From Candidatus Manganitrophaceae bacterium (GTDB taxonomy: Bacteria > Nitrospirota > Nitrospiria > SBBL01 > Manganitrophaceae): 64,000 bases of DNA. Below the pieces are notes generated by a model, which had not been told where the DNA came from, did no database searches, and worked only from the letters and a program-made list of their open reading frames with translations. How positions within the stretch are numbered: the stretch's first letter is position 1; every line of letters begins with the position of its first letter. The DNA lies in assembly GCA_016200325.1 (NCBI GenBank), contig JACQEZ010000005.1:1-64000 (forward strand), read 5' to 3'. Shown piece by piece: positions 10,453 through 26,300 of this stretch. Made by a program: the position numbers and the translations under genes.

Positions 10453-10474
10453 CCAAATCGCCTTTCTCTGTCCT

Positions 10475-11284
10475 TTAGGAAAGTTCAGATTCCTTTTTTT
10501 TAAAAAACCGTTTTATCATTACTCTTACAAAAACCAGCAAACCCGCAGCGCCGGAAAGGAGAAAAACATGCTTTGTGAAGTCATAAGATTCTTCCTTCAG
10601 AACAAGGTCTCCAACCGAGTACCCTAAAAAGGAAAATAAAATAATTGGAGGGGTCATAAACACCGCCGATACCCAAACATATCGTCTAAACGGAATCGGA
10701 GTAATTCCCCAAAAATAGTTCAAAGGACCGAACGGGAAGATAGGTGCAATCCGGGTGAACGCAACCGCTTTCCATCCCTGTTTATCAATTCCTTCTTTTA
10801 ATCGGTTCCAAATCGGTTGTTTAAACTGTTCTTTGAAATAGCCTCCGACCAAGTACCGCGAACTGAGAAAGGCGAGGGACGCTCCCATAGCTGCCCCTAA
10901 AATTGCCAAAAAACTTCCAAGCCAGGGCCCCCAAAGGAAACCAGCCCCGAGGTTTAACGGTAGGGTCGGAAGAAAAAAAACAGGCAGGATACCATAAAGT
11001 AAAATAAACAGAACCGGTGCCAAAGTCGGATGAGACTCTAAATAGACCAGGAGGTACTCCGCCCGAATATATCCCTGACGTCTCAAATAAAAAAACCAAA
11101 AAACGGAAACCAGAAAGAACACGATCATTATTAAGCGTTTTCTATCAAGGAAGTGATTCTCTTTAGACGGACAGGTCAAAGCGGGCTCTTGAGCATCTTC
11201 AGGTTGCTCTAAGAAAGTCTCATTCCGTTTCTGCGTCGATGGATCGTCACTTATATTCAAGTTATTCAACCATATCGTGCACAT
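10475..11284 (-). CDS. TVP38/TMEM64 (VTT/DedA-like) membrane protein
   Basis: A 269-residue inner-membrane protein with the VTT domain. After a polar N-terminal tail of about 45 residues comes a membrane segment (50-66), then the family block PVFFLPTLPLNLGAGFLWG, the GAAMGASLAFLSSRYLVG segment and FTRIAPIFPFGPLNYFWGIT, whose F/P-x-x-P-x-x-x-x-N pattern is typical of TVP38. The C-terminus is a further helix and a basic tail. DedA/VTT proteins are linked to lipid scrambling, including polyprenyl phosphate recycling, so a role in returning the lipid carrier is a reasonable inference here. It sits 6 bp downstream of the Nudix gene in a sugar-biosynthesis operon. Confidence 0.87.
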   Translation of the reverse strand: MCTIWLNNLNISDDPSTQKRNETFLEQPEDAQEPALTCPSKENHFLDRKRLIMIVFFLVSVFWFFYLRRQGYIRAEYLLVYLESHPTLAPVLFILLYGILPVFFLPTLPLNLGAGFLWGPWLGSFLAILGAAMGASLAFLSSRYLVGGYFKEQFKQPIWNRLKEGIDKQGWKAVAFTRIAPIFPFGPLNYFWGITPIPFRRYVWVSAVFMTPPIILFSFLGYSVGDLVLKEESYDFTKHVFLLSGAAGLLVFVRVMIKRFFKKKESELS

Positions 11285-11290
11285 TTACGT

Positions 11291-11860
11291 TCAAATGCAA
11301 TTTCTTCGATAAAGCGCTACCAAAGTGCAAGGATCTTGAATCACGAAATCCGCAGCCATCCGAGCAATATCTGACGTTGGAAAAAATCGAAGCTCTTTGT
11401 GGCCAAATTCTTCCCCACTAAAAGGCCTTATATTAAAACATTCTAAAGCTCCGAAGATATGAATCCGTGCCTGGAGGATTCCTGCTTCAGGTGTTAAGTA
11501 TCCCAATGACTTCATCCTCTCCGGTTTGCAACCCAAACCCGTTTCTTCTTCCAATTCTCTGATCGCGGAGATGGCAGGGTCTTCTCCTTCGTCGATAAAT
11601 CCCCGAGGGATCTCCCAGGAGTAATCTTGAATTCCGTGCCGGTATACTCTAATAAGTCCGATTTGCTTCTTCAAGATCGGGAGGATGGCAACCCCGGTGA
11701 TGAGATTCTCAGCCCTGCTTTTAGGAGCAATAACAAGATAATCCCGGACAACCTCTCCATTTGCTCCTTCAATGAAGTCAAAAAAAACATTAAACTTACT
11801 GTTTTCGCAAACCAATCTTCGATCGCGGAGAATGAATTTCGTCCCTCGTCCTTTACTCAT
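11291..11860 (-). CDS. Nudix hydrolase (ADP-ribose pyrophosphatase-like)
   Basis: A 189-residue hydrolase with a complete Nudix box at residues 87-109: G-x5-E-x7-RELEEETGL, giving the metal-binding glutamates. The upstream VYRHGIQDYSWEIPRGFID segment matches the NudF/ADP-ribose and GDP-mannose pyrophosphatase group, which cleave nucleoside-diphosphate sugars to NMP and sugar phosphate. In this operon it could remove damaged or surplus GDP-sugars, but general housekeeping is equally possible. Its ATG overlaps the stop of the LhgO-like gene by 4 nt (11857-11860), so translation is probably coupled. Confidence 0.9.
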   Translation of the reverse strand: MSKGRGTKFILRDRRLVCENSKFNVFFDFIEGANGEVVRDYLVIAPKSRAENLITGVAILPILKKQIGLIRVYRHGIQDYSWEIPRGFIDEGEDPAISAIRELEEETGLGCKPERMKSLGYLTPEAGILQARIHIFGALECFNIRPFSGEEFGHKELRFFPTSDIARMAADFVIQDPCTLVALYRRNCI

Positions 11861-13104
11861 TGAGACACCGTCTGTTTAAAGGACTTTTCATATCGATCAA
11901 CCAGTAGCTCGGCAAAAGCAAAAGAGCTGGTAAATGCGGGAGAAATTGCATTGAGGACGTGCGTAGAAGTTGGCGTCTCTTCAATGATATAATCCATCTC
12001 GAGCTTTTTCATTTCAATATTGACCAACTGCGGACGGATACCAACTTTGTTGGAGGGCACTAGATCTTCGGAGGTCAATTCCGGCACGAGTTTGCGGGCT
12101 GCTTCCAAAAAAGAGCGTTTACGATATTTCCGCATTTCTGTGTGTACAAGCAGACGAAAGTTCTGATGGTTCCTCAAGTACATGCCGGCCACATGGCGTC
12201 CAATTCTCAACCCCTCCGCCATTTTGATTCCACCGAAAATTCCGTAATTCTCTCGGCCAAGTGCTGGAATCGCCGTGGGACCGACATAAACATCTCCACT
12301 AACGACCCGCGTTAGATGAACCCCCAGAAAAGGAAGCCTAATGTCTGGAACGGGATAAATGCTTCCCTTTACCAGGCCGTTTCGTTCTGGCCGCAATTTG
12401 TAATAAAGTCCTTTGAAAGGAAGAAGCGCATACCCACTCCCCAGCCCCATCTTCTTGGCAATTAAATCTGCATTCGCTCCAGCACAGTTAAACAGGTGCC
12501 CATAACCATACCGGCGACGATTGGTATGTACAATCCGCTCCTTTGACTGAATGCGATGAACCTCTTCATTGAAAAGGATCTGGCTTCCTCTATCAGAAAG
12601 GAGGGAAGCCAGCTTTCTGACCACGGCCAGACTGTCAATAACAGCCGTGTCCGGACTATAAATCCCTACCTTATATGGACCTGCGTGAGGCTCTATCTTC
12701 TTAATTTCCTCCTCTCCGAGAAGCTCGGCTCGAATCTTATTTTCTCGGGCATTCTTAAGCAAACGATCGACTACGGGAAGATCTAGCTCACCGGTCGCGA
12801 TAATGACTTTTCCAGAACAGTGATACGAGATCCCATATTCTTCGGCAAATCGGCACATCCGAGCAGCACCGATCGAGCAGACCTTCGCCTTTAATGTCTC
12901 ACTGCCATAGTAGATACCGGAGTGCAACACCCCACTATTGCGGCCACTGGCATGCATCCCAACATGCGGTTCTTTTTCTAAAAGGGCAACGCGGGCCTCG
13001 GGATAGCGCTTCTTTAACTCATGGGCGGTGGTGAGGCCGAGAATTCCAGCTCCCACAATGATGAAGTCATAATTCTCGGCCGGCTTATCAAGTGAGCCGT
13101 CCAA
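11857..13104 (-). CDS. lhgO: FAD-dependent L-2-hydroxyglutarate oxidase-like protein
   Basis: A 415-residue flavoprotein of the DAO/LhgO family. The dinucleotide-binding motif is DFIIVGAGILGLTTAHELKK (about 13-32), followed by LLEKEPHVGMHASGRNSGVLH, the LhgO-specific block HSGIYYGSETLKAKVC, and GLYYKLRPERNGLVKGSIYPV and HLTRVVSGDVYVGPTA near the substrate domain. LhgO oxidises L-2-hydroxyglutarate to 2-oxoglutarate and passes electrons to the membrane pool. Placed inside a sugar operon, it may instead oxidise a sugar or sugar acid. A conceivable link is that ColD-type dehydratases turn glutamate into 2-oxoglutarate. The family call is firm, the role in this pathway is not. Confidence 0.87.
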   Translation of the reverse strand: MDGSLDKPAENYDFIIVGAGILGLTTAHELKKRYPEARVALLEKEPHVGMHASGRNSGVLHSGIYYGSETLKAKVCSIGAARMCRFAEEYGISYHCSGKVIIATGELDLPVVDRLLKNARENKIRAELLGEEEIKKIEPHAGPYKVGIYSPDTAVIDSLAVVRKLASLLSDRGSQILFNEEVHRIQSKERIVHTNRRRYGYGHLFNCAGANADLIAKKMGLGSGYALLPFKGLYYKLRPERNGLVKGSIYPVPDIRLPFLGVHLTRVVSGDVYVGPTAIPALGRENYGIFGGIKMAEGLRIGRHVAGMYLRNHQNFRLLVHTEMRKYRKRSFLEAARKLVPELTSEDLVPSNKVGIRPQLVNIEMKKLEMDYIIEETPTSTHVLNAISPAFTSSFAFAELLVDRYEKSFKQTVSQ

Positions 13105-13106
13105 CG

Positions 13107-14048
13107 TCAGACATTTCCATATTTGGAGTTCTTGATCATGGTATATCCTTTTATCAGTTCCTGAATGCCGAAATCCAAGGGATACATCGGCTTGAAGCCG
13201 GTCCGCTCAATTTTTTCATTGGAAACGATATAGTTGCGCTTGTCCGGATCCTCTCCTACCGGAGCCTCTAAAAAGACAAAATCTGAGAGCTGTTTCTGAA
13301 TAGCCTGACAGAGTTCCAGCTTAGAGAGATTGGCCTCGGAGAGCCCCACATTATAAGCCTCCCCCTTCATCCTATCAAAATGTTCGATGCCATCAAGAAA
13401 GGCACGAGCCACATCACGAATATGGATATAATTGCGCTTAAAATGAGGCTCGAATAAGATCACAAAACGATCATATACAGCTCTGTATGTAAAATCATTG
13501 ACCAAAAGATCAATCCGCATCCTCGGAGACATACCGAAAACAGTCGCAAGCCTAAAGCTGATGGCGTTTTCATGCTCAAGAAGGGCCTTTTCAACCTCCA
13601 CTTTGTCTTTGGCATAAAGTGAGATAGGACGCAAGGGAGAATCTTCATTACAATAGTTGTTTTTATCACCGCTTCCGTATGCGCTATTGGTCGTTGGCAT
13701 TAGGACCCGCTGCTCTTTAGATAATGCTTTCAGCATCGTCAAAATTGCTTCACGGTTTGTCGTGGAAGCGGCAATTGGATCCTGATTACACAAGGGCGCA
13801 CCGACAAGAGCGGCCAGCGGGATGATGATATCGGCCTTCTTCAAAAGCGGTGCGACCGTCTTTTCGATACGGACGTCTCCCCGAACAACACTGAAATTGG
13901 GATTGTGACAGACGTGGGCAAGGCTATTCTGTCCGAACATAAAGCTGTCTAACACCGTGACCTTATGTCCCGCGTTGAGCAACTCCGGAACCATAATAGA
14001 CCCCAAATAACCTGCTCCACCCGTAACGAGAATATTAAAACTCATCAT
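13107..14048 (-). CDS. NAD-dependent epimerase/dehydratase (extended SDR)
   Basis: A 313-residue extended SDR. The cofactor motif [13 protein letters not shown] is near the N-terminus, PLAALVGAP sits at the usual NAD-binding loop, and the catalytic triad region is TTNSAYG followed by SLYAKDK (Y-x3-K). The LNAGHKVTVLDSFMFGQNSL segment and FRLATVFGMSPRMRIDLLVN are those of a UDP-glucose-4-epimerase-like branch commonly found in GDP- or CDP-sugar clusters. It precedes lhgO by 2 bp and follows gmhA, so it likely reduces or epimerises a keto-sugar made by this operon. It is a good candidate for the final ketoreductase after the dehydratase/TPP steps. Confidence 0.86.
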   Translation of the reverse strand: MMSFNILVTGGAGYLGSIMVPELLNAGHKVTVLDSFMFGQNSLAHVCHNPNFSVVRGDVRIEKTVAPLLKKADIIIPLAALVGAPLCNQDPIAASTTNREAILTMLKALSKEQRVLMPTTNSAYGSGDKNNYCNEDSPLRPISLYAKDKVEVEKALLEHENAISFRLATVFGMSPRMRIDLLVNDFTYRAVYDRFVILFEPHFKRNYIHIRDVARAFLDGIEHFDRMKGEAYNVGLSEANLSKLELCQAIQKQLSDFVFLEAPVGEDPDKRNYIVSNEKIERTGFKPMYPLDFGIQELIKGYTMIKNSKYGNV

Positions 14049-14076
14049 CTTCCTTTCCGAATAAGTTAGACAGCCG

Positions 14077-14667
14077 CTAAACTACGTCTGGAAACATCTC
14101 CGCTTCAACAGCAGCACAAAGTGTGTGTGCCAGAACAATATGCAATTCTTGGATGGTACTGGTCTCCTCTCCGCTGGCAATAATGCAGAAATCGGAAAGC
14201 TTTTTCGCATCTCCACCGTCCCTACCACAGAAAACAATAGTGGTCATTTTCATCGAACGACATTGCTCCAGTGCTCTGAGGATATTCGGAGACCGGCCAG
14301 ACGTCGTAATTCCTAAAAACAGATCGTTCACTCGCATCTTCCCTGCGATCTGCCGGGCAAAGACCTCGTCATAGCCATAGTCATTTCCAATTGCAGTTAA
14401 AATAGAGCTATCCACAGTCAAAGCCTCGGCAGGTAACGGAGCTCGGGGCTTGGCAAGCTTGCTGACAAACTCCGCCGCCAAGTGCTGCGCATCCGCCGCA
14501 GACCCCCCATTTCCTGCGATATAGAGCCGACCTCCTTGTCGGTAACCCTCCACAACGGCTTCTATCGCCCTGCCGAAGATATCAACCTGCTCATAGTTGG
14601 CCAGAAATTCTTTTTTAGCCAAAATCGACTTTTCCAAACTTTCTCTCAATCGATCTGTATGTTTCAT
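14077..14667 (-). CDS. gmhA: Sedoheptulose-7-phosphate isomerase (phosphoheptose isomerase)
   Basis: A 196-residue SIS-domain enzyme, equal to typical GmhA length. It converts D-sedoheptulose 7-phosphate to D-glycero-D-manno-heptose 7-phosphate in the cytoplasm. Visible motifs are YIAGNGGSAADAQHLAAEFV (about 49-68), the TVDSSILTAIGNDYGYDEVF loop, FLGITTSGRSPNIL with the SIS Ser-Gly-Ser phosphate site, and C-terminal ELHIVLAHTLCAAVEAEMF with the conserved catalytic histidine. It lies 6 bp after hddC, with hddA further upstream, so the isomerase feeds the GDP-heptose route. It may also supply the WaaC/WaaF heptosyltransferases, since the GmhB phosphatase is fused to WaaF 34 kb away. Confidence 0.95.
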   Translation of the reverse strand: MKHTDRLRESLEKSILAKKEFLANYEQVDIFGRAIEAVVEGYRQGGRLYIAGNGGSAADAQHLAAEFVSKLAKPRAPLPAEALTVDSSILTAIGNDYGYDEVFARQIAGKMRVNDLFLGITTSGRSPNILRALEQCRSMKMTTIVFCGRDGGDAKKLSDFCIIASGEETSTIQELHIVLAHTLCAAVEAEMFPDVV

Positions 14668-14673
14668 CTTTCC

Positions 14674-15378
14674 TCAGTCTATCTCACCCAGCATTAAAGC
14701 GGATGCATAATAATCGTCCGGAATCCCAATATCGATAAATCGGCCTGCCGATTTAAACCCATAAACTCTGCTTCCCGACTGAAGCAGCACTGGGAAAAGT
14801 TGATCCTCCAGGGATAGCGCGCTTCCAGGAATCCATTCATCGGAGAGTGCGCCCTTTTCAAAAAGATAAACTCCCCCATTGATCAGACGATTGCTAGGAT
14901 TGGAGATTCCGCGGTAGGCGACAATTCTCTCTCCTTCTCCGAGCTGCACGCCGCCGTAGCGGCTGTTTTCAGCAACCTCCAAAAGGGCCATCGTTAAATC
15001 AGCCTTCTTTTCGAGGTGAAACGATTTAAGCTTTTCCAGATCGACTTCAAAAAAGGTATCCCCGTTTAGCACAAGAAAGGGGCTCGGGTTCTTGATTCTC
15101 TCGAGTGCAAGCAACAATCCGCCGCCGGTACCAAGCGGTTGTTCCTCTACCGCATAAACGATCTCGATCCCTTTATATCTATCTTTAAAGTAATCCTGAA
15201 TCGCATCTCGCTTGTATCCGACCGAAAGGATAAACCGGAGGACCCCTTGCTTAATCCAATAATCCAGTTGGTAGGTCAGAAAGGGACGTCCGTTGATGGG
15301 AGCCATCGGCTTGGGGAGATCGGGGACAACCGACTGGAGTCGCGTACCCCGTCCCCCTGCGAGAATAATTGCCTCCAT
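14674..15378 (-). CDS. hddC: D-glycero-alpha-D-manno-heptose-1-phosphate guanylyltransferase
   Basis: A 234-residue nucleotidyltransferase. The N-terminal MEAIILAGGRGTRLQSVVPD followed by LPKPMAPINGRPFL is the pyrophosphorylase signature with the catalytic Arg and Lys. EQPLGTGGGLLLAL and VLNGDTFFEVDL supply the nucleotide pocket and the metal-binding aspartate; a second aspartate is in FIDIGIPDDY. This short form matches HddC, which makes GDP-D-glycero-alpha-D-manno-heptose. Co-occurrence with gmhA and an HddA kinase in the same operon supports GDP rather than another nucleotide, although the base cannot be read from these motifs alone. 7 bp separate it from the dehydratase gene. Confidence 0.87.
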   Translation of the reverse strand: MEAIILAGGRGTRLQSVVPDLPKPMAPINGRPFLTYQLDYWIKQGVLRFILSVGYKRDAIQDYFKDRYKGIEIVYAVEEQPLGTGGGLLLALERIKNPSPFLVLNGDTFFEVDLEKLKSFHLEKKADLTMALLEVAENSRYGGVQLGEGERIVAYRGISNPSNRLINGGVYLFEKGALSDEWIPGSALSLEDQLFPVLLQSGSRVYGFKSAGRFIDIGIPDDYYASALMLGEID

Positions 15379-15385
15379 CTCGTTC

Positions 15386-16594
15386 CTAAGCCAGCTTGGT
15401 AATTACGCTGTGAAAGTACTTTATCTTTTCCGAAATATCCGTTGGGAAATTACCGACGAAAAAGCCTTGATCGTGAGCAATATTGGCATTTTTTATTTCT
15501 CCGACACACTCATAATCAAAATACTTGATGACATCGTGACGAAGAAAATTGCCCCCAGTGATAATGCGAAAGTTGATTTTCGCCTCCTTGAGCCCCTGCA
15601 TCACTTTTTTTCGATCGATCTTAAGATCGGGGTTGAGAATCACGGTAAACGAAAACCAAGAGCTCTTTCCATTTTCTCTCTGGATAATAAAGCGCTCGTC
15701 GCCCTTAAAGAGGCAAGTAAACAGCTCCGCATTTTTACGTCTGATTTCAACCATCTTATCGAGCTTTTTCAACTGTTCCAAGCCAATTGCGCCGCTCAAC
15801 TCGAGCGGGCGGGCATTGTAACCGGGCAGAATAAAACGATACGCTTCATAAAAATCATCAGAACGTCTTTCAAAGATTTTTGTATCTAGTGGCAGATCTC
15901 GAATCCATCCATGGGCACGAAGCGATTTGGCGATATGATACGTCTCCTCATCTTCCGTAACGAGCACTCCCCCTTCCATGGTCGAGATATGATGGGAATA
16001 AAACGTACTGAAGGTACCGATATCTCCGAAGGTGCCACAGAGACGGCCTCCAAGCTCGGCCCCCATTGATTCGCAATTGTCTTCAAATAAATAGAGCCCA
16101 TGCTCGTCACAAAATTTTCGAAGCCTGTCGAGCGCACACGGATTTCCCAGAATGCTGACAGCGACCACCATCCGGGTCTTTGGGGTCAGCGCCCGCTCCA
16201 GTTGGGAGGTGTCCATATTTAACGTGTCCAACTCGATATCGAGAAACTTAAGCTTTAGTCCATATTGCTGAAGGGGATAATACGTCGTTGACCAAGAGAT
16301 GGAGGGAACGATCACCTCGTCTCCCCGTTTGAGAGGACGGTCTTTCTTATAGAAGAGAGCGGCAATACCAACCAGATTGGCAGTAGAACCGGAACTCACC
16401 ATCAATGCGTGACGACTTCCAAATTTTTTTGCAAAGGCGGCCTCAAACTTTTTTACGTTCTCTCCCATGGTGAACATGCCGCTATCAATCACCCGGTGCA
16501 TCGCCTCAATCTCTTCTTTTCCCCAAGAGGAGGCGGTCAGATCATACTCGATTTTTTGCTCTTCTTTTCCCGACTTTTTCTTTATCTTTTCCAT
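15386..16594 (-). CDS. PLP-dependent NDP-keto-deoxysugar 3-dehydratase (ColD/RfbH-like, DegT family)
   Basis: A 402-residue fold-type I DegT/DnrJ/EryC1/StrS protein. The PLP site is visible as SSGSTANL, SISWSTTYYPLQQYG and LFEDNCESMGAELGG. Where aminotransferases carry the PLP-lysine (FHxxKxxxxxEGG), this protein reads STFYSHHISTMEGG, placing His201 at the lysine position. Such a Lys-to-His change defines the C3-dehydratases ColD (GDP-colitose) and RfbH/E1 (CDP-ascarylose, abequose), which remove the C3 hydroxyl of a 4-keto-6-deoxy sugar. The four-cysteine iron-sulfur pattern expected for E1 is not obvious, favouring the ColD-like, glutamate-using type. I start at the ATG at 16594 because the longer frame would overlap the E1-beta gene by 47 nt. 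Confidence 0.85.
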   Translation of the reverse strand: MEKIKKKSGKEEQKIEYDLTASSWGKEEIEAMHRVIDSGMFTMGENVKKFEAAFAKKFGSRHALMVSSGSTANLVGIAALFYKKDRPLKRGDEVIVPSISWSTTYYPLQQYGLKLKFLDIELDTLNMDTSQLERALTPKTRMVVAVSILGNPCALDRLRKFCDEHGLYLFEDNCESMGAELGGRLCGTFGDIGTFSTFYSHHISTMEGGVLVTEDEETYHIAKSLRAHGWIRDLPLDTKIFERRSDDFYEAYRFILPGYNARPLELSGAIGLEQLKKLDKMVEIRRKNAELFTCLFKGDERFIIQRENGKSSWFSFTVILNPDLKIDRKKVMQGLKEAKINFRIITGGNFLRHDVIKYFDYECVGEIKNANIAHDQGFFVGNFPTDISEKIKYFHSVITKLA

Positions 16595-16595
16595 G

Positions 16596-17633
16596 CTATT
16601 TCTTACACATCTCCTTAATCGTATTTTCGATCTTGTCAACACTGGGATAGATATACTGTTCCAGAGTAAAGCCAGCTGGGGTTGGAATATCAGGCATCCC
16701 GATGCGTCGAACGGGCGATCTCAAATCATCGAATCCTTTTTCGGCCGCAAGACATCCGATTTCAGCACAGAGTCCCCCCATGGTCCAACCGGTATCCACC
16801 ACTAAAATTCTTCCGGTCTTTCTGAGCGATTCGAGGATGATCGTCTCATCCAACGGCTTAAGCGTCCGCAGATCGATCACATCGGCGGTAATATCCGAAT
16901 CTTTTAATTTGTCGAGCGCTTTCATCGCTAGATCTAATACATGAGAAGCGCCAACGATGGTGAGATCTTTTCCCTGTCGGCGATAGATCCCTTTTCCAAT
17001 CGGGACGGTATAAATTCCTTCCGGCACAACCCCCTGCTGCTTCATTAACCAACGGTGCTCAAAAATAAGGACAGGGTTATTATCATAAATGGCGGCGAGC
17101 ATCAGGCCCTTTGCATCATGGGGCGTACTCGGCATCACGATCTTCAAGCCTGGAACTCCCAGCAAAAGCCCCTGGATCGCTTGGGAGTGTTGCGCACCGG
17201 AACCCCAACCCCGCCCGATCGCAGACCAGACAACCATGGGGACTCTCGTCTGCCCATTATCCATGTAAGTGAACTTCGCCGCATGCGTCACCAACTGATT
17301 GAAAGCCAACAAAAGAAAATCTGGACGATTATGCATGTAAACGGGGCGCATACCATTCATCGCGGCGCCGACACAAACGCCCATCATTCCTTCTTCAGAG
17401 AGGGGCGTATCAAAGACCCGATCGTGACCGAATTTTTCCGGCAGGCCTTTTGTCGTACCAAACATTCCTCCCGGATCATCTACACCCTGCCCGAGCACGA
17501 ATACGGAGCGATCTTTATCTAGCGCGAGAGAGAGCGCCTCGTTTAGAGCCTGAGCATAACCCAAGATCCGTCCTTCGGAAGGATCTGGCACATCATATAC
17601 CAGAGAATTGACTAGTCCTTCATCCCAAGGCAT
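16596..17633 (-). CDS. Pyruvate dehydrogenase-like E1 component, beta subunit
   Basis: A 345-residue transketolase-type protein of the E1-beta family (PDH, branched-chain or acetoin dehydrogenases). SILGYAQALNEA-like helices, VFVLGQGVDDPGGMFGTTKG, DTPLSEEGMMGVCVGAAMNG (catalytic Glu80 region that activates thiamine diphosphate) and GSGAQHSQAIQG (His149) are present, and the C-terminal domain carries VIDLRTLKPLDETIILESLR. It should pair with the E1-alpha encoded 12 bp upstream. No E2 acyltransferase or E3 is in the window. Together with a 3-dehydratase and GDP-sugar enzymes this suggests the pair transfers a two-carbon unit to a sugar rather than to lipoate. That role is inferred. Confidence 0.88.
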   Translation of the reverse strand: MPWDEGLVNSLVYDVPDPSEGRILGYAQALNEALSLALDKDRSVFVLGQGVDDPGGMFGTTKGLPEKFGHDRVFDTPLSEEGMMGVCVGAAMNGMRPVYMHNRPDFLLLAFNQLVTHAAKFTYMDNGQTRVPMVVWSAIGRGWGSGAQHSQAIQGLLLGVPGLKIVMPSTPHDAKGLMLAAIYDNNPVLIFEHRWLMKQQGVVPEGIYTVPIGKGIYRRQGKDLTIVGASHVLDLAMKALDKLKDSDITADVIDLRTLKPLDETIILESLRKTGRILVVDTGWTMGGLCAEIGCLAAEKGFDDLRSPVRRIGMPDIPTPAGFTLEQYIYPSVDKIENTIKEMCKK

Positions 17634-17645
17634 TCAAATCACCTC

Positions 17646-18671
17646 TTAATCACTATAAACGTGAGTATAAAGATCTTTTTCCTTTGGCATCGGACTCGCA
17701 ATGGCGTGGGCAAATGCCTCCTGGATTTCTTGGTTAATCTCACTCTCCATTTGTTCTCGCTGCATACCGTTTATATCACCCCGATCGGAAAGAAACTCGT
17801 AATAGATCTGAATCGGACAGTACTTCTGCCAGACTTTGACCTCTTCCGAATCTCGGTAACCGGTTGCGCTGTCGTCACCGGCCCCGCCATGGCCTCTCCA
17901 GCGATAGGTACGGGCCTCGATGAAAGTCGGCCCCTCTCCCCGCCTGGCTCGCTCCGCGGCTTCACGAGTTGCTTCATAAACGTCTAGGACATTATTACCG
18001 TCGACGCAGACGCTCGGAAGACCGAAGCCGGCAGACCTCTTGTAGATCTCCACATGCGGCTGACGTGTCTCCAGAGAGGAACAAACGGAATAGAAGTTAT
18101 TTTCGCAAAAAAAGATAACAGGTAATTTCTTGAGCACCGCGAAGTTCAAGCTCTCAGAGGTGACCCCTTCCTCTGTAGTTGCATCCCCGAGGAGAACCAT
18201 CGAAACATAATTTTGCTTCTTCAATTGAGCAGCCAGCGCCGCACCGGTGGCAATTGGGACCGCTCCGCCGACGATCGCAGAGGTTCCCGCCATTCCGACG
18301 CTCTTGTCGATTAAATGCATCGAACCTCCGCGAGAGCCAGCACAACCATTTGCGCGGCAATACATCTCCGACATCATCCTTTTCAGATCTCCCCCCTTGG
18401 CGAGATAGATTCCATGCGTTCGATGGCTTGAATAAACAAGGTCCTCTCGCTTAAGGGCGGATGTGCTCCCGACGCAAGCCGCCTCCTGTCCAATGACCAA
18501 ATGGATTGGCGTTTTCATTTCATCTTCATGATAGCGGCGCTCGATCTCGAGTTCGACGAGGCGGATACGGAGCATTGACCGATAAAGTGAAACCAAAAAG
18601 GTTTGGTCATAATCAATCCCTTTTTCTTTTTGCCTTTGAAAGCCACTTCCGGTATAAGGGTATCGGATCAT
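17646..18671 (-). CDS. Pyruvate dehydrogenase-like E1 component, alpha subunit
   Basis: A 341-residue thiamine-diphosphate subunit. LYRSMLRIRLVELEIERRY, HLVIGQEAACVG, YSSHRTHGIYLAKGGDL and SRGGSMHLIDKSVGMAGTSA are E1-alpha hallmarks. The TPP/Mg motif runs from GDATTEEGV to CENNFYSV (about 162-195), with Ala in place of the third residue of the classical GDG. RTYRWRGHGGAGDDSATGYR is the phosphorylation-loop region. I use the ATG at 18671, one base after the stop of the Fcl-like gene; the longer frame would overlap that gene. With the adjacent beta subunit it forms an alpha2beta2 enzyme that decarboxylates a 2-oxo acid, probably pyruvate, giving an enzyme-bound two-carbon carbanion. Confidence 0.89.
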   Translation of the reverse strand: MIRYPYTGSGFQRQKEKGIDYDQTFLVSLYRSMLRIRLVELEIERRYHEDEMKTPIHLVIGQEAACVGSTSALKREDLVYSSHRTHGIYLAKGGDLKRMMSEMYCRANGCAGSRGGSMHLIDKSVGMAGTSAIVGGAVPIATGAALAAQLKKQNYVSMVLLGDATTEEGVTSESLNFAVLKKLPVIFFCENNFYSVCSSLETRQPHVEIYKRSAGFGLPSVCVDGNNVLDVYEATREAAERARRGEGPTFIEARTYRWRGHGGAGDDSATGYRDSEEVKVWQKYCPIQIYYEFLSDRGDINGMQREQMESEINQEIQEAFAHAIASPMPKEKDLYTHVYSD

Positions 18672-18672
18672 T

Positions 18673-19656
18673 TTAAACGCTACCTTCTTGTTTGATAAAC
18701 CATTCATAGGTGTTTCGAAGACCTTCTTCTAATGTAATCCTGGAGCGCCATCCCAGCGCAATGAACCGGGTACTGTCTAAGAGTTTTCTAGGGGCACCGT
18801 CAGGTTTTGACGTATCCCATTCGATTTTTCCCTCATATCCCACGACCCGGCGGATGATCTCGGCAAGCTCTCGGATCGACTGATCAGAACCGACCCCAAT
18901 ATTCAAAGGGAATTCGACTTTGGAGACATCCTGCTCCAGGAGGAGAAGACACGCAGCTGCAATGTCATCCGCATGGATGAATTCTCGTCTAGGATCTCCG
19001 GTTCCCCATAATACGACTGACTTTTCTTCCTTTACCTTTGCTTCATGCATTTTTCGAATCAACGCAGAGAGAACATGAGAAGAAGCTGGACTAAAATTAT
19101 CGTGGGGACCATACGCGCTGTTCGGAATAACTGGAAGGAACCGCTGTTCTCCATACTGACGGTTATATGAGAGACACATCTCCAGTCCTGCCAACTTGGA
19201 GATGGCATAAGCAAGGCTGGTCGGTTCAGGTCTGCCGCTTAAAAGTTGGGACTCCTTCATCGGCTGCGGACACTCGCGCGGATACATGCAGGAGGATCCG
19301 AAAAAGATCAATCGCTTCACTCCAGCCTGATGCGAGGCACGCAAAACATTCAGCTGAAGCTCTAAGTTCTCAGTAATAAAGTCCGCCGGGTATTCTCTAT
19401 TCTCAATGATGCCACCGACCCGACCGGCAGCAAGAAAAACGGTATCAGGTTTCTCTTTGTTAAAGAAAGCATCCACCTGGGTACGGTTACAAAGGTCCAA
19501 CTCATCTCGGGTTCGAGTAAGAATCGGTTGACCCTTCGCTTCCAGCCTACGAACCAAAGCTGAACCAATGAGGCCCTGATGACCTGCGATGTATATTCGT
19601 TTGGCTTCCCAGATTTGGAGAGTTCGACCTATACTTTGCAGACCGCCTCGAATCAT
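18673..19656 (-). CDS. GDP-L-fucose synthase-like epimerase/reductase
   Basis: A 327-residue extended SDR of the Fcl/WcaG family. KRIYIAGHQGLIGSALVRRL is the NADPH motif, FLAAGRVGGIIENREYPADF the family fingerprint, FFGSSCMYPRECPQPMKE carries the catalytic Ser and Cys, YAISKLAG the Tyr-x3-Lys, and ASSHVLSALIRKMHEA the catalytic His used in epimerisation. All key residues for a 3,5- or 5-epimerisation plus 4-reduction of a GDP-4-keto sugar are therefore present. Relatives include GDP-fucose synthase, ColC of colitose synthesis, and the C3/C5 epimerase-reductases of GDP-6-deoxyheptoses. Context (ColD-like dehydratase, Gmd, GDP-heptose genes) leaves all three open. Confidence 0.88.
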   Translation of the reverse strand: MIRGGLQSIGRTLQIWEAKRIYIAGHQGLIGSALVRRLEAKGQPILTRTRDELDLCNRTQVDAFFNKEKPDTVFLAAGRVGGIIENREYPADFITENLELQLNVLRASHQAGVKRLIFFGSSCMYPRECPQPMKESQLLSGRPEPTSLAYAISKLAGLEMCLSYNRQYGEQRFLPVIPNSAYGPHDNFSPASSHVLSALIRKMHEAKVKEEKSVVLWGTGDPRREFIHADDIAAACLLLLEQDVSKVEFPLNIGVGSDQSIRELAEIIRRVVGYEGKIEWDTSKPDGAPRKLLDSTRFIALGWRSRITLEEGLRNTYEWFIKQEGSV

Positions 19657-19664
19657 CCTCGCAT

Positions 19665-20663
19665 TTAACCTAATCCGTTCGGCTGATAAAGCACAATTTT
19701 GCTGCCTGAATTTTCAAAACGAAAAGGAACATGGATCAAATACTTCAGCTTCTCCATCACCTGCTGGCGAACCGCTGGGGTAACAAACAAGAGCAAAAAC
19801 CCTCCCCCGCCCGCCCCCAAGATCTTCCCGCCGGTAGCCCCCGCACGCTTTGCCGCCTCATAAATTAAGTCTATTTGAGGGGTCGATACTCTATCGGAGA
19901 GGCTCTTTTTATATTCCCAACACTCGTGTAAAAGTTTTCCAAAATTCTCTATCGGCTCGTTCTTGGACTGAAGGATTGCAATGGCTTCGTTTACCATCTC
20001 CCGCATCCTGCAGAGCTCTACCACACGATTTTTAAAGTTTTCGATTTTTGACTTGGCGATATCAGAAGCAATCCTTGAGAAGCCGGTGAAGAAAAGCATT
20101 AGATGATTCTCAAAATCTTCTTGTCTCGGTTTATCCATAATAATCGGAAAGACCTCAAAAGAATCATTCGTTTTGAACTCTATCTTATTAAACCCGCCAA
20201 AGGCCGCCGATATCTGATCCTGAGAACCGACATTCTCCTTAATCACGTTTTGCTCAATGTGGATCGCCTGTTTCGCAACATCCTCTTTAGAGATATGCTG
20301 GCCGTTCATTGCCATAATTGCATTGATTAGCCCGACTGTAAAAGACGAGCTCGATCCAAGTCCGGAACGGGCTGGAAGATCCCCATCATGATGGACCTCA
20401 AGACCCTTATTGCAGCCCATCTCTTGCAGAACAGCCTTCACCGCAGGATGGTTGATGTCTGCGATGTCTTTAACCGTCTCAATTTTTGAATAGACGATTC
20501 TATATTTATGGTCGAAAAAGGGCGGAAGATAACGACAACTGAGATAACAATACTTGTCAATTGTCGTGGCAAGCACCGAACCTCCATTTTCTTGATACCA
20601 GGCAGGATAATCGGTCCCACCTCCAAAAAATGAGACCCTAAAAGGCGTTCGACTAACGATCAT
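19665..20663 (-). CDS. hddA: D-glycero-alpha-D-manno-heptose-7-phosphate kinase
   Basis: A 332-residue GHMP kinase. The N-terminal RTPFRVSFFGGGTDYPAWY is the sugar-binding block of heptose and fucose kinases, GDLPARSGLGSSSSFTVGL (about 94-112) is the GHMP ATP loop, and GATGGKILGAGGGGFLLLF is motif 3. Length and motifs match HddA, which phosphorylates D-glycero-D-manno-heptose 7-phosphate at the anomeric position to give the 1,7-bisphosphate. It shares the operon with gmhA and hddC. The 7-phosphatase GmhB that should act next is not here but is fused to WaaF at 48725-50323. A start-proximal GAGG lies 7 nt before the ATG. Confidence 0.92.
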   Translation of the reverse strand: MIVSRTPFRVSFFGGGTDYPAWYQENGGSVLATTIDKYCYLSCRYLPPFFDHKYRIVYSKIETVKDIADINHPAVKAVLQEMGCNKGLEVHHDGDLPARSGLGSSSSFTVGLINAIMAMNGQHISKEDVAKQAIHIEQNVIKENVGSQDQISAAFGGFNKIEFKTNDSFEVFPIIMDKPRQEDFENHLMLFFTGFSRIASDIAKSKIENFKNRVVELCRMREMVNEAIAILQSKNEPIENFGKLLHECWEYKKSLSDRVSTPQIDLIYEAAKRAGATGGKILGAGGGGFLLLFVTPAVRQQVMEKLKYLIHVPFRFENSGSKIVLYQPNGLG

Positions 20664-20780: not shown

Positions 20781-22310
20781 TTAAATTACGGGAAGCGCTT
20801 GTTTCGTTGGGATCTGCCTATACCAACGACGTTCAACTTTATGGCTCGCCATCTCCCGGATATGGTCGACCGTTTCTAAACCGAATCTTTCTTTAACATA
20901 GGATAAATATCTCGGATTATTGAAATAAATCTGAAACGCTTCATCTCGGAACTTCAATACTTGTCCTGCCGTCAAATGTTCCGTCGGAAGTGGTAAAGTA
21001 TCAATTCCATGCTGCGAGAAACCATGCCACTTTTCGGGCAAAGGCCACCCCTTCTCAACCGCCAAGTTATATAACTTAGAACCAGGATAGGCCATTGCGC
21101 TATAAAAGTTTGCGAATTCACAATTCAATTCCAAGGCTAGGTCGAGCGTGTCCTGCATGCTCTGAAGATCATCGTCGGGTAGGCCGAAAATGTAATTTCC
21201 AATCACGTTAATTCCGGCGCGCTGAATCGCCCGGACCGTTTCCTGAATATCTTCCTGACCAAACTTCTTGAGGACCCCATCACGGACATGTTTACTTCCG
21301 GACTCAATCCCGAGCGCCAGCCAGTTGATGCCAGCTTTTTTCATTTTCTCAAGCATCTCTTCCTGTACCGTATCTACTCTGGCATAGGCCCAAAAGTTAA
21401 GATTATAGTTGCGTTCAATTAAAAGATCACAAATATCAAGCACATGTTTTTTATTGAGAACGAACATCTCATCGAGGATCTTAATCGATTTAACCTTATA
21501 ATTCTGAACAAGGAAATCAATTTCCTGAATCACACTTTGAGGACTTCTATATCGGATGCTCGGTTTTCCAAAGGGAGCGTTAATGCAACAGAAGCTACAT
21601 TTAAAGGGACATCCTAAACTCGTATAAAGCACCGCATACGGCTGCCGATCATTTAAACGGCCGAAGCAGTGCCAATTATGTGCACGGTATTTCTCCATCG
21701 GCAACAGATCCCAAGCCACCCCCGGAAGATCACGATCCAAATCATCACTAATAGGAGCAGGAAGATTTGAAATAATCTCCCCCGATTTCCGATACCAAAG
21801 CCCAGGGACAGATTCCAAAGCTTCTCGATTTTCACTTTTTAATACACGAAGCAATCCAAGAATCGTAAAGGGGCCTTCTCCCTCGCAGACAAAATCAACA
21901 GGTTCCTCTTCAAGAGTCTTTTTAGGCAACGCTGAAACATGAACCCCGCCGAGGATCGATTTAACATCAGGAGCAAGACGTCGAATTGCTCCACAGGTAT
22001 CCCCTGCGGCGGTCATCTTTTGAGTGGACGCTGAAGGTTGGGATCCAAAAACAATGACCGCCGCTAACCGGGGATTAAGCTTTCCTATCTCTTCCCCCAC
22101 CCTCTCTGGAGACCACCCCTCCGCCTCAGCATCGATAATTCTTACCATTTCGCCATGATTCCGAGCAAAAGTCGCGATTAAACCAACCCATACAGGTGGC
22201 TCGATTGCGGTCAGTGTGCTGCTGAGACCTTGGTATACCTGCTTCTGCGCGCCTGGATTAACCAATACCAGATCAAGTCGCTGATCACCGGATCTCTCTG
22301 AGCTTGCCAT
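20781..22310 (-). CDS. B12-binding-domain radical SAM protein
   Basis: A 509-residue enzyme with an N-terminal cobalamin-binding-like Rossmann domain (about 10-165; LDLVLVNPGAQ, AAVIVFGSQPSAS, ILGGVHVSALP) and a radical SAM TIM barrel. The iron-sulfur ligands are C234, C238 and C241 in LGCPFKCSFCCINAP, followed by KSIKILDEMFVLNKKHV and WLALGIESGSKHVRDGVLKK. The canonical DxHxxG cobalamin ligand is not obvious. Class B-type methylases and related enzymes alkylate unreactive carbon or phosphorus, so C-methylation or another carbon-centred change on a sugar or lipid is possible. It is the first gene after a strong promoter and carries AGGAG about 8 nt before its ATG. Confidence 0.86.
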   Translation of the reverse strand: MASSERSGDQRLDLVLVNPGAQKQVYQGLSSTLTAIEPPVWVGLIATFARNHGEMVRIIDAEAEGWSPERVGEEIGKLNPRLAAVIVFGSQPSASTQKMTAAGDTCGAIRRLAPDVKSILGGVHVSALPKKTLEEEPVDFVCEGEGPFTILGLLRVLKSENREALESVPGLWYRKSGEIISNLPAPISDDLDRDLPGVAWDLLPMEKYRAHNWHCFGRLNDRQPYAVLYTSLGCPFKCSFCCINAPFGKPSIRYRSPQSVIQEIDFLVQNYKVKSIKILDEMFVLNKKHVLDICDLLIERNYNLNFWAYARVDTVQEEMLEKMKKAGINWLALGIESGSKHVRDGVLKKFGQEDIQETVRAIQRAGINVIGNYIFGLPDDDLQSMQDTLDLALELNCEFANFYSAMAYPGSKLYNLAVEKGWPLPEKWHGFSQHGIDTLPLPTEHLTAGQVLKFRDEAFQIYFNNPRYLSYVKERFGLETVDHIREMASHKVERRWYRQIPTKQALPVI

Positions 22311-22443: not shown

Positions 22444-23370
22444 TCAGCTTAAGAGCTTCCTATCCCTGATCATTTGTGAGATTCCCATTGAAAATGGGAC
22501 ATCGGGAGACCAGTCTAATGCCTGGGATGCTCTTTCAATGGCAAGGACATTTGCCGGCACATCGATTTTTCTGGCATATGTAAATGTCACTTTAAGCTGA
22601 TGTCCCATCTCTTTTTCGATCTCTGAGATAATATCTCGAAGCGTATGTCCAACCCCACTCCCTATGTTAAAGAGTCGATAATCGGTACAATTATTTATCG
22701 ACTTTACAAAAGCCCTTGCCACATCTGAAACATGAATGAAATCTCTCACGATACTTCCATCACCCCAAATTTCAATGGGCTGTTCCCGAAGAGCCCTCTC
22801 AATGAAAATCGAGATAGCGCCCTGATTCGATTCAACCGATTGCCGTGCTCCATAGGGATTCGAGATCCTCAGAACAGCGTAGTCAATTGCATAAAGGCAA
22901 TGATACAAATGCAAATACTTTTCTATGGCAAGCTTTTGAATTCCATAAGAACAGATAGGGAGGGTTGGATGATCTTCAGGTATTGGAAGGACCTGGGGAA
23001 CTCCATAAATCGTACCCCCTGATGAAGCAAATATTATCTTTTTTATACCTTCCCTCTTGGCGATATCTAGCATCTGAACAGTTGCGACGAGATTCGATGA
23101 GAGATCATAGATTGGATTATCATTTGATGATTGTGGGAGTGTAGTACCGATTAAGTGGAATACGATATCCATATCCGAAAGTGCCTCTCGAACATTATCT
23201 AGATCAGAAAAATCCCCTTCCTTAAGATCGATCTTATTTATCAGATGCTTTATATTTATCTTGCTGCTCCCTTTCTTTTCAAAAATTCGCACAAAATGGC
23301 CCCCGGCCAATAAACTATCACAAAGATGAGACCCTAAAAAACCACCACCCCCGAGAACAATACAATTCAT
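22444..23370 (-). CDS. NAD-dependent epimerase (UDP-glucose 4-epimerase-like SDR)
   Basis: A 308-residue extended SDR starting [20 protein letters not shown], a glycine-rich NAD loop. IVFHLIGTTLPQS, FASSGGTIYG, and SYGIQKLAIEKYLHLY (Tyr-x3-Lys) give the active-site layout, and ISNPYGARQ, RDFIHVSDVARAFVKS complete the family pattern. A nucleotide-sugar 4-epimerase or dehydratase is likely, probably providing a monomer for the ABC-exported chain. I chose the ATG at 23370, which overlaps the stop of the 1694-residue gene by 4 nt (ATGA); the longer frame adds 13 residues inside that gene. It is the last gene of its unit, ahead of the promoter at 22394-22422. Confidence 0.86.
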   Translation of the reverse strand: MNCIVLGGGGFLGSHLCDSLLAGGHFVRIFEKKGSSKINIKHLINKIDLKEGDFSDLDNVREALSDMDIVFHLIGTTLPQSSNDNPIYDLSSNLVATVQMLDIAKREGIKKIIFASSGGTIYGVPQVLPIPEDHPTLPICSYGIQKLAIEKYLHLYHCLYAIDYAVLRISNPYGARQSVESNQGAISIFIERALREQPIEIWGDGSIVRDFIHVSDVARAFVKSINNCTDYRLFNIGSGVGHTLRDIISEIEKEMGHQLKVTFTYARKIDVPANVLAIERASQALDWSPDVPFSMGISQMIRDRKLLS

Positions 23371-26300
23371 TGAGAGTTTCCTTTGTAAGAAATAATCGCT
23401 TCGCGACATAAATCAGCCTGCATGGACAACAATTTAGTATTATCAAACTTTCGCTGCACAGTGCACCATGCATGAGAAGCTAGGCGGTTTGCCAAAGTTA
23501 GATCACTTAAAATTCGATGAATTTGTTCAGCCATCACCTTTGGTTGCCCAGGGGGCACGAGAAGGCCCTCCATTTCAGAGCTAATTATCTCTGGAATACC
23601 ATATACATTTGTAGAAATAAGGGGAAGTCTAAAAGCCATCGCAAGCAAGACAACCATTGGAAAAGATTCTACTGAACTGGCACAGACAAAAATATCGCTT
23701 AATGCATAAAAATCGTAAACTTCTGGAGTTTCCATATATATCTTAAAAAATTCTTCTCCGGCCAATTTAATTTGCCTGCGAAGATTATCGAGATATTCAC
23801 CCTCGCGACCTCCAACGAGGACAAATAGTAACTCCTCCTTAGAATAAGCGAAATCTCTGATTAAATGGTCCGCTGCATCAATAAAAACATGTTGTCCCTT
23901 ACGTTCGCATGTGGTTCCAATTAATGTAATTATTTTGCGATTCTTCGGCAAACAGTATTTTTCACGTATTTTCTCTTTGGTATTTTTTTCACAATATTCC
24001 GCAATACGATCAAGAGGCAGACCTCCAGGAACGATACGAATCCTATCTTCCTTATCAAGATGGTGATACATTTGGGCGGTTGCATCCGCTGCGATCACGA
24101 CGCGACATGCTTGAGTGAAAGAACTCTTAACCAATTCTATAACAGGATCAGGAAGATAAAGAAAGTGTTCTTCTATATTGGTACTCTCATGGACATACCA
24201 TATACTTGGTTTATTGAAAAGCTTGGCGAGTTCGATCCCCCAAAATGTATTGAGCGTATTACATCCAATTAAATCAAAATTTTCTACTGCAAGCTCTTGC
24301 CCAAGATCCTTAAGTTTCATACGCATTTTTGTAACACTTTCACCGGTTGCAATCGATTCCTTAATAATCTTTAGAGGTAGACCGGCTTCTTCATACTTCT
24401 TCCGCAATGGACCGTCCAAGGGTGACAGCGTAACGACTGAAAATCCTTCCTTTTCAGTTAAATATTTAGCCAATTCAAACGCAACAATAGGAGCTCCCTC
24501 AAAATTAAGGTTGTGTGTCAGCAATAACATTTTGATCTTTTCAATTGGATAGACATGCCCTACATATGTTGGATTCAAAGCCATTTCTGTAGAATTGCGA
24601 TCGAGGGTTCGATTAACAAATGGATCAACATAATTCGGATAACGTTTAATAAAGTTAAGATGTTCAGTAGAGTCATATTGCTGGCCTCTGCTAGCTCCAG
24701 TACGATGGACCAATGTGGCATGAGGGGTATAGACAGCTCTTCCGCCGCTTTTCCAAAGTCGTAAACAGAAATCTACATCATTGTAGGCTACGGGAAACAT
24801 CTGCTCATCCATCCCGCCAAGGCGCTTATAAGTTTCCACTCGAGTTAGTAGGCAAGCCCCGGTTAACGCGGAAACATTCCTAACTATTTGGGCTAAAAAC
24901 AGGTATCCCAATTGATCTCGATGTTGCCCTATGAAGAAATGGTCTGCCAAACCGTAATATGGACCTATAGTTATACCCGCATGTTGGACTGTCTGATCTG
25001 AAAATAGTAAACGTGCTCCGACTGCCTCCACTCCAGGAATTGTCAGCCAACCGACCATATCTTCCAGCCATCCAGGTTCCATAGCCTCAATATCATTATT
25101 GAGGATTAACACTGAAGACGTTTGGACATACTCAACGGCCTCATTGATTAGCCGTGCGAAATTAAACGTCCCATCTCCTCTTTTTGGCCTTATAACTTTT
25201 ACATCGATTGAACATTGGGTATGTAATTTTTCTAAATAATTAAGCGTTTCAATATCCTTAGTCCTATCATCAATAATCAAAATATTTACACTTTTGGGAT
25301 CCACCGTCCGCTCAAGCGAATCAATGCATGGTTTTAAAAGATCAATTCGATCTTTTGTGGGAATAATAATAGTTACGGGACTTTCTGCTATTAAATGAGC
25401 ATCCCAATGGAGTTGATAAAGACAAAGATCATGCTTCTCTGCAAAAGATGGGAGAAAAGTCTTAGCCTTAAGGCCTCGTCGATCCAAAGCTTCATTGATT
25501 GCCTGTTTCGCGTGCTCAAATATATACTTTTTTTGTCTTCCATTAGAGGCAGTACTTTTATCATGCGCCCTCCAGTGGTAACAAACATACGGAACATGCC
25601 TTATTCGGTCAGGAGTTGTCTGCTCTGATACACGGAGAAACAAATCCAGGTCTTGCGCACCTTCAAATCCCTTCCGTAATCCTCCTACTTTTTGTAAAAT
25701 GCTACGACGGATTACTGTAAGATGATGAGTATAGTTATGGGTAAGGGCCATTTCTGGACTCCATTCCCCTTTGAATTGTGGATCATATCGTCTGCCTTTA
25801 GAGTCAATTTTATCCTCATCTGTATAAATCCAATCTACGTCGGGAAAACGATATATTTGCTCTGCTACATGAAGGATCGCATCAGCTGATAATTCATCAT
25901 CATGATCAAGAAATGCAACATAATCTCCAGTAGACAATTCCAATGCGGAATTAGTCGCTTCTGAGATATGTCCATTAGTTTGACGAAATATAACCTTAAT
26001 ACGAGAGTCTTCCTGAACTAGCTTTGAAAGATAGTTCTTAACTTGTATTTGGGTCGAACAGTCATCGGCCAGACAAAGTTCCCAATTAGGATATATTTGA
26101 TTCTTTACGGATTGAACCATATCCATCAAGAATTCAAGAGGGGTGTTAAATACTGGAACAATAATACTAATCTTTGGACCGATTCCCAGTAGTCTTTGTG
26201 ATTTTTCTTTTAAATAATTGAAAAGTGTAGGAGTCATGGCGTTGTGGACCAACCAACGCTCATAAGGAGTTTGAAATTCCCATGCATGCTTTATCCGAAA

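Follow-up and report, generated by a model that had tools for sequence, protein, structure and literature searches.

A pyruvate-dehydrogenase-type E1 pair without an E2 partner in a lipopolysaccharide locus of a Candidatus Manganitrophaceae bacterium: a probable carboligase for a branched heptose

The stretch of DNA analysed here (the window) is 64,000 nucleotides long (contig JACQEZ010000005.1, positions 1 to 64,000, assembly GCA_016200325.1, Candidatus Manganitrophaceae bacterium) and encodes, within a lipopolysaccharide (LPS)/O-antigen region, two proteins similar to the E1-alpha and E1-beta subunits of pyruvate dehydrogenase (PDH). The best explanation overall is that this pair is an E2-independent, thiamine diphosphate (ThDP)-dependent carboligase of the alphaKADH2 type, which would function in O-antigen/LPS sugar synthesis by placing an acetyl group on C4 of a GDP-heptose (probability about 0.6). 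We consider it very probable that the two proteins form an E2-free carboligase of glycan synthesis; the narrower claim, that the product is specifically a C4-acetyl-GDP-heptose, is probable.

Orphan status of the E1 pair

Both subunits are encoded by intact open reading frames (ORFs) in a tight minus-strand run.

16596 to 17633, minus strand: E1-beta of the candidate carboligase; PF02779 and PF02780, HxRxDF motif, Arg at docking position 305
17646 to 18671, minus strand: E1-alpha of the same orphan (E2-free) candidate alphaKADH2-type ThDP carboligase; PF00676, ThDP/Mg motif, in the orphan clade of the trees

E1-alpha scored 246 bits against Pfam E1_dh and its top match in the PDB was human PDH E1-alpha (1ni4), while E1-beta contains the Transket_pyr and Transketolase_C domains and its top PDB matches were 1ik6 and 3duf_B. 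The pair has the PDH-type E1 fold with the ThDP-binding and catalytic residues, and E1-alpha retains the ThDP/Mg motif G162-D163...N192 and the catalytic R257 and H261. The architecture, two chains of E1_dh and Transket_pyr type, is not the single-chain, acetolactate-synthase-like one of YerE. A preliminary description of this DNA had placed the two genes between an Fcl-like short-chain dehydrogenase/reductase (SDR) and a pyridoxal 5'-phosphate (PLP)-dependent 3-dehydratase with gaps of 1-12 bp. The ORFs and their spacing were confirmed: 1 bp between the Fcl-like gene and E1-alpha, 12 bp between E1-alpha and E1-beta, and 1 bp between E1-beta and the dehydratase gene, whose ATG is at 16594.

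The same description found no E2 or E3 gene in the window, and this extends to the whole of its contig (C5), in which family searches gave neither an E2 nor an E3 match. The source genome (4.2 Mb, 99% complete) was searched by family profiles and contains four full-length genes of the E1_dh family and three E2 genes. The other three full-length E1-alpha genes, on contigs C16 and C19, have E2 genes at a distance of 2-3 kb, and every E2 gene adjoins an E1 pair other than that of the window. The window pair is therefore an orphan, since there are four full-length E1-alpha genes for three E2 genes, each of which has another E1.

A conserved cassette and a separate clade of E1 pairs

The minus-strand run at 11291-20663 is composed, in the order of transcription, of genes for an HddA-like kinase, the Fcl-like SDR, E1-alpha, E1-beta, a ColD-like DegT protein, HddC-like and GmhA-like proteins, a second SDR (SDRx), an L-2-hydroxyglutarate oxidase and a NUDIX hydrolase. 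A gene for a B12-binding radical S-adenosylmethionine (SAM) enzyme is located directly upstream of the run.

11857 to 13104, minus strand: L-2-hydroxyglutarate oxidase (LhgO), likely recycling the by-product of SDRx; NCBIfam PRK11728, 352 bits, over the 299 cut-off
13107 to 14048, minus strand: putative Cj1427-type GDP-heptose C4-dehydrogenase (SDRx); 372 bits to 6vo6/6vo8
14077 to 14667, minus strand: GmhA-like sedoheptulose-7-phosphate isomerase; NCBIfam gmhA/PRK13936, 163-166 bits, under the cut-offs
14674 to 15378, minus strand: HddC-like heptose-1-phosphate guanylyltransferase; NCBIfam HddC as top match, 198 bits, under the 300 cut-off
15386 to 16594, minus strand: putative ColD-type GDP-4-keto-sugar 3-dehydratase, dependent on PLP/pyridoxamine phosphate (PMP); 450 bits to ColD (2gms)
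18673 to 19656, minus strand: SDR like Fcl/GDP-fucose synthase (candidate C4-reductase and/or C5-epimerase, or side-chain ketone reductase); NCBIfam GDPFucSynFcl, 423 bits, under the 500 cut-off
19665 to 20663, minus strand: HddA-like GHMP kinase (heptose 7-phosphate kinase), with an HddA-like gene in all full cassettes; NCBIfam HddA, 151 bits, far under the 600 cut-off
20781 to 22310, minus strand: B12-binding radical SAM enzyme, invariant partner in the cassette; PF02310 and PF04055, 51-74% identity across all full cassettes

A genome-wide scan with E1-alpha as the query returned 59 loci, and the cassette is carried by about 20 of them, by one genome of the same class and by plasmid pDMC1 of the cultured Solidesulfovibrio magneticus RS-1. 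A search for the same gene set in other genomes had been suggested earlier, and 21 loci, the window included, proved to have the E1 pair, SDRx, the HddA-like kinase, the radical SAM enzyme and the DegT protein together. The cassette is distributed over at least eight phyla (Pseudomonadota, Acidobacteriota, Chloroflexota, Nitrospinota, Elusimicrobiota, Planctomycetota, Bdellovibrionota and Thermodesulfobacteriota), and none of the other five genomes from the genus of the window shows it. No E2 gene was within reach of the cassette (0/21 loci), and the gene arrangement at the locus is not due to chance. Genes that would make a ketosugar acceptor, those of the C4-dehydrogenase and the 3-dehydratase, are linked to the pair in all full cassettes, and E1 and the dehydratase gene are direct neighbours in most loci that group close to the window in the tree. 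In the window dehydratase the PLP-binding Lys is replaced by His (SHHIST motif), and His occupies this position in the DegT protein of every full cassette, even at about 30% identity to that of the window, which argues that the dehydratase function is conserved. The B12-radical SAM gene accompanies the cassette no less constantly than the E1 pair does; the top PDB match of its product was AprD4, a weak one. Orphan E1 pairs were also found in polysaccharide loci with Lys-type DegT aminotransferases (L037, L038, L044, L046, L081 and L116, of which L046 belongs to the window's genus), and this suggests other ketosugar acceptors there.

Trees were made for E1-alpha alone, E1-beta alone and both subunits joined, with support values from the Shimodaira-Hasegawa-like approximate likelihood ratio test (SH-aLRT). 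In all trees the cassette pairs and the other orphan pairs stand on one side of a single branch and every E2-linked pair on the other (99-100% SH-aLRT). Residues were counted in 45 sequences of the orphan side and 33 of the other, E2 side. The ThDP-activating Glu (E1-beta E80), the active-site His (E1-beta H149, E1-alpha H261) and the metal/ThDP Asn are kept on both sides, whereas the HxRxDF motif of E1-beta (H101, R103) was present in 45/45 orphans and 0/33 sequences of the other side. E1-beta R194 and E1-alpha P55 occur in 45/45 orphans and E1-alpha R203 in 44/45. Position 305 of E1-beta is Lys or Arg in 39/45 orphans (Arg in the window) but Asp or Glu in 31/33 sequences of the other side. 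This position aligns to human beta-Asp289 and B. stearothermophilus beta-Glu285, which we take to be residues for docking of E2/E3BP (the docking role of beta-Asp289 was not confirmed in papers). In the window, E1-beta is without the acid for E2 docking, and the orphan pairs have lost other acidic positions as well. The E2 binding domain is basic in nature (PMC6270654).

Two orphan pairs found by profile search, L187 and L189, which we assign to Streptomyces by inference, group with the orphans in the E1-alpha tree as well as in the E1-beta tree and carry the HxRxDF motif; in Streptomyces, a degenerate DNA pattern written for this motif matched an unrelated conserved gene. Both have TDP-sugar genes as neighbours: the L187 pair adjoins RmlA and RmlB, and L189 (a major facilitator superfamily transporter, EF-G, RmlC, E1-beta, E1-alpha and an activator-dependent glycosyltransferase) resembles the published paulomycin cluster. 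These two, and not authentic AviB, Pau or KbDH, represent the sugar-branching group in the trees. One more orphan pair of this clade is located on plasmid pSGRIFU1 of Streptomyces griseofuscus (L114, 14923-16969), where it is annotated as thiamine-dependent dehydrogenase. A metagenome-assembled genome (MAG) of Burkholderiales carries two tandem E1-alpha/E1-beta-like pairs with no E2 detected (L088, 10001-13500), and the pair in the trees is on the E2 side.

These results bear on a simpler explanation, that the window pair is an ordinary E1 of PDH or another 2-oxo-acid dehydrogenase which borrows one of the E2 cores of the genome. Its fold and catalytic residues are those of a PDH E1, three E2 genes are available, and an E2/E3 partner gene elsewhere in the genome with matching expression had been named at the outset as a finding that would count against a carboligase. 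E2 and E3 genes do exist, but every E2 has its own adjacent E1, the trees of both subunits put the window pair in another clade than the E2-linked pairs, the charge of the docking acid is reversed with more acidic positions gone, and the E1 pair has been co-inherited with sugar genes across phyla. On these four grounds E2 borrowing was rejected as highly improbable. The central proposal of the preliminary description, an E2-free E1 carboligase in a 4-keto-3-deoxy nucleotide-sugar pathway, is strongly supported by the genomic evidence, i.e., orphan status, cassette, trees and residues.

Acceptor sugar and proposed pathway

The DegT protein is much closer to ColD (450 bits to 2gms) than to the CDP enzyme 3bcx (186 bits), and since it is ColD-like it is probably GDP-specific. 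SDRx scored 372 bits to 6vo6/6vo8 and 82 bits to the next PDB sequence. The structures 6vo6/6vo8 are presumably those of Campylobacter jejuni Cj1427 (the structure file says only putative sugar-nucleotide epimerase). SDRx has its motifs in common with all cassette copies and is without the Asp/Glu pair of 4,6-dehydratases. Cj1427 is a GDP-heptose C4-dehydrogenase that yields L-2-hydroxyglutarate, and together with a C3-dehydratase it gave GDP-D-glycero-4-keto-3-deoxy-heptose in vitro with the C. jejuni enzymes (PMC10680097). The LhgO gene follows directly after SDRx, which fits recycling of the L-2-hydroxyglutarate by-product, and the LhgO ortholog in the L057 cassette is also over the cut-off. 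Gmd gave no match above background in 9/18 other cassette genomes, a count in which gaps of the MAGs may play a part. An acceptor made by Gmd, a 6-deoxy sugar, was rejected, as Gmd had no match in these 9/18 genomes and the Cj1427-type enzyme is always present. The relation of SDRx to Cj1427, LhgO, the absence of the Asp/Glu pair and the gaps in Gmd together favour a 6-hydroxylated 3-deoxy-4-keto heptose over a 3,6-dideoxy sugar. The acceptor is likely GDP-D-glycero-4-keto-3-deoxy-heptose with its 6-OH retained. Of the preliminary description's suggestions, the 4-keto-3-deoxy sugar stands; a 3,6-dideoxy sugar derived through Gmd is less likely than a heptose with the 6-OH, made through the Cj1427-type C4-dehydrogenase.

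The pathway that we propose would begin with heptose supply by the HddA-, HddC- and GmhA-like proteins, whose functions are read from the context. By comparison with close homologs, the Cj1427-like SDR would oxidise C4, with alpha-ketoglutarate regenerating NAD+ and yielding L-2-hydroxyglutarate, which LhgO would return to alpha-ketoglutarate. The ColD-like enzyme would take off the C3 hydroxyl to give GDP-4-keto-3-deoxy-heptose. E1-alpha/beta would then decarboxylate pyruvate and add the hydroxyethyl-ThDP carbanion onto the C4 ketone, and the product would be a 3-deoxy-4-C-acetyl-heptose of nine carbons with a tertiary alcohol. The two-carbon transfer is proposed by analogy with alphaKADH2 enzymes, and the donor, acceptor, branch position and timing of the E1 step are likewise predictions. 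The Fcl-like SDR (top PDB match 1e6u; SYK triad and Cys/His epimerase dyad kept) might then reduce the acetyl branch, or might epimerise C5 earlier, and the finished sugar would go into LPS/O-antigen. As a tentative extension, which we hold with rather less confidence than the pathway itself, the cassette may encode a shared surface-glycan pathway, widespread and horizontally distributed, in which an E2-free E1 makes nine-carbon 3-deoxy-4-C-acetyl (or hydroxyethyl) GDP-heptoses and the B12-radical SAM enzyme adds a further modification; such sugars would be a class of LPS monosaccharide without a description in the searchable literature.

A carboligase may also act on another acceptor, at another time or with another donor, e.g., on a ketosugar already transferred to a lipid or glycan, on some other carbonyl, or with a 2-oxo acid besides pyruvate. 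In avilamycin the two-carbon unit is reportedly added after glycosyl transfer (PMC4425429), C3 branching is also known for alphaKADH2-type enzymes, and the Fcl-like reductase and the radical SAM enzyme still need their places in the pathway. The invariant linkage to the 3-dehydratase and the C4-dehydrogenase, however, favours a 4-keto-3-deoxy sugar nucleotide as the acceptor, the known natural products of the alphaKADH2 group all have C2 branches, and KbDH is restricted to pyruvate; we regard this alternative as unlikely. Still less likely is that E1 is active but off the pathway, the cassette making a GDP-3-deoxy-heptose by means of the Fcl-like C4-reductase and the E1 product (e.g., an acyloin) being used elsewhere. 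C. jejuni does obtain 3-deoxy heptoses from a C4-dehydrogenase, a 3-dehydratase and a C4-reductase without E1, and the Fcl-like SDR retains the reductase triad. But Fcl was not in the sequenced surroundings of L056, L057, L059, L060, L061, L064 and L080, so C4 reduction is no constant step, and the immediate adjacency of the E1 and dehydratase genes, seen in most loci that the tree places close to the window, also speaks against an off-pathway role.

Several points weigh against a C4-acetyl-GDP-heptose pathway. The HddA-, HddC- and GmhA-like assignments are top matches or nearly so, all of them below the curated cut-offs. Pyruvate is taken for granted as the donor. The Fcl-like SDR keeps C4-reductase and epimerase residues, and plain reduction of the 4-keto group could leave E1 with another role. 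The Lys-type aminotransferases in other E1 glycan loci mean that the 3-deoxy acceptor is not universal. Around the S. griseofuscus orphan pair is a biosynthetic cluster in which no sugar genes are obvious, which supports another acceptor there and speaks against restriction of the clade to sugar acceptors, and clade membership alone is no proof of a sugar acceptor. Most cassette loci are MAGs, in which single placements may be contamination.

Other genes of the window and comparison with known systems

The remainder of the window is an LPS region encoding RmlA, RmlB, RmlD, Gmd, WaaP-like kinases, glycosyltransferases, heptosyltransferase II, LpxK, an MsbA-like transporter, LpxI and an Omp85 protein, together with Wzm/Wzt-like transporter genes assigned from the sequence.

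9748 to 10452, minus strand: family 2 glycosyltransferase (GT2); PF00535, 78-79% identical in L057 and L066, 60% in L115
10475 to 11284, minus strand: VTT/DedA-like membrane protein; PF09335, also in L057 and L115
11291 to 11860, minus strand: NUDIX hydrolase; PF00293, also in L056, L057, L058 and L115
34082 to 35044, minus strand: GDP-mannose 4,6-dehydratase (Gmd); TIGR01472, 452 bits, over the cut-off
48725 to 50323, minus strand: heptosyltransferase II fused to a GmhB-like phosphatase domain; TIGR02195, 206 bits (over the cut-off), and PRK08942, 175.5 bits (cut-off 178)

The GT2, VTT and NUDIX genes (9748-11860) travel with the cassette, on S. magneticus pDMC1 as well. The window Gmd probably serves another sugar of the glycan, and the GmhB-like domain of the heptosyltransferase II fusion is a possible source of the bisphosphate phosphatase step. 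The 1694-aa ORF at 23367-28451 appears to join a methyltransferase-like part, at its N-terminus, to several parts resembling glycosyltransferases.

Neither an E1 gene in an O-antigen cluster nor a 4-C-branched heptose was found in the searchable literature. Judged by that literature, what seems new is the LPS context, a GDP-heptose as acceptor and the wide spread of the cassette; the enzyme type and the reaction are known from antibiotics. If the proposed pathway is true, an antibiotic-type branching enzyme operates in LPS synthesis and a new family of branched heptoses is predicted in at least eight phyla. The HxRxDF motif of E1-beta and the lost docking acid may serve as a signature that tells carboligase E1 pairs, annotated as pyruvate dehydrogenase, from true components of the complex. 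GDP-4-keto-3-deoxy-heptose can already be made by enzymes, which makes the substrate prediction testable.

The colitose pathway, which starts from GDP-4-keto-6-deoxymannose made via Gmd and gives a sugar without a C2 branch, has in ColD/ColC the counterparts of the close ColD homolog (450 bits) and the Fcl/ColC-like SDR of the window. The capsular heptose pathways of C. jejuni share GmhA/HddA/HddC-type supply, the Cj1427-type C4-dehydrogenase, the 3-dehydratase and the Fcl-like reductase, but as described they lack an E1 pair and their heptoses are unbranched; the window adds LhgO and the B12-radical SAM enzyme. YerE, of yersiniose synthesis, and ErwE resemble the window pair in the reaction proposed for it: a 2-oxo acid gives up its acyl group to C4 of an LPS sugar precursor, a 3-deoxy-4-keto sugar nucleotide. 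YerE is a flavoprotein of one chain, belongs to the decarboxylase superfamily and uses a CDP-3,6-dideoxyhexose (PMC12247030), whereas the window enzyme is a two-chain E1, probably acting on a GDP-3-deoxyheptose. The preliminary description was right about an architecture different from YerE for a surface glycan; E1-type enzymes are already known to put two-carbon branches on ketosugars in antibiotics (PMC12247030, PMC4425429), so the novelty is confined to surface glycans. KbDH acylates sugar-like ketones in vitro (PMC12247030). AviB1/AviB2, Pau11/Pau12, EvdU5/EvdS3 and KbDH-alpha/beta are, like the window pair, E1-alpha/E1-beta pairs tied to ketosugar synthesis. They serve secreted antibiotics with deoxysugars, whereas the window pair is in an LPS locus with a ColD-type 3-dehydratase and probably acts on a GDP-heptose. 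The paulomycin-like Streptomyces pair belongs to the same clade as the window pair and has the same signature residues.

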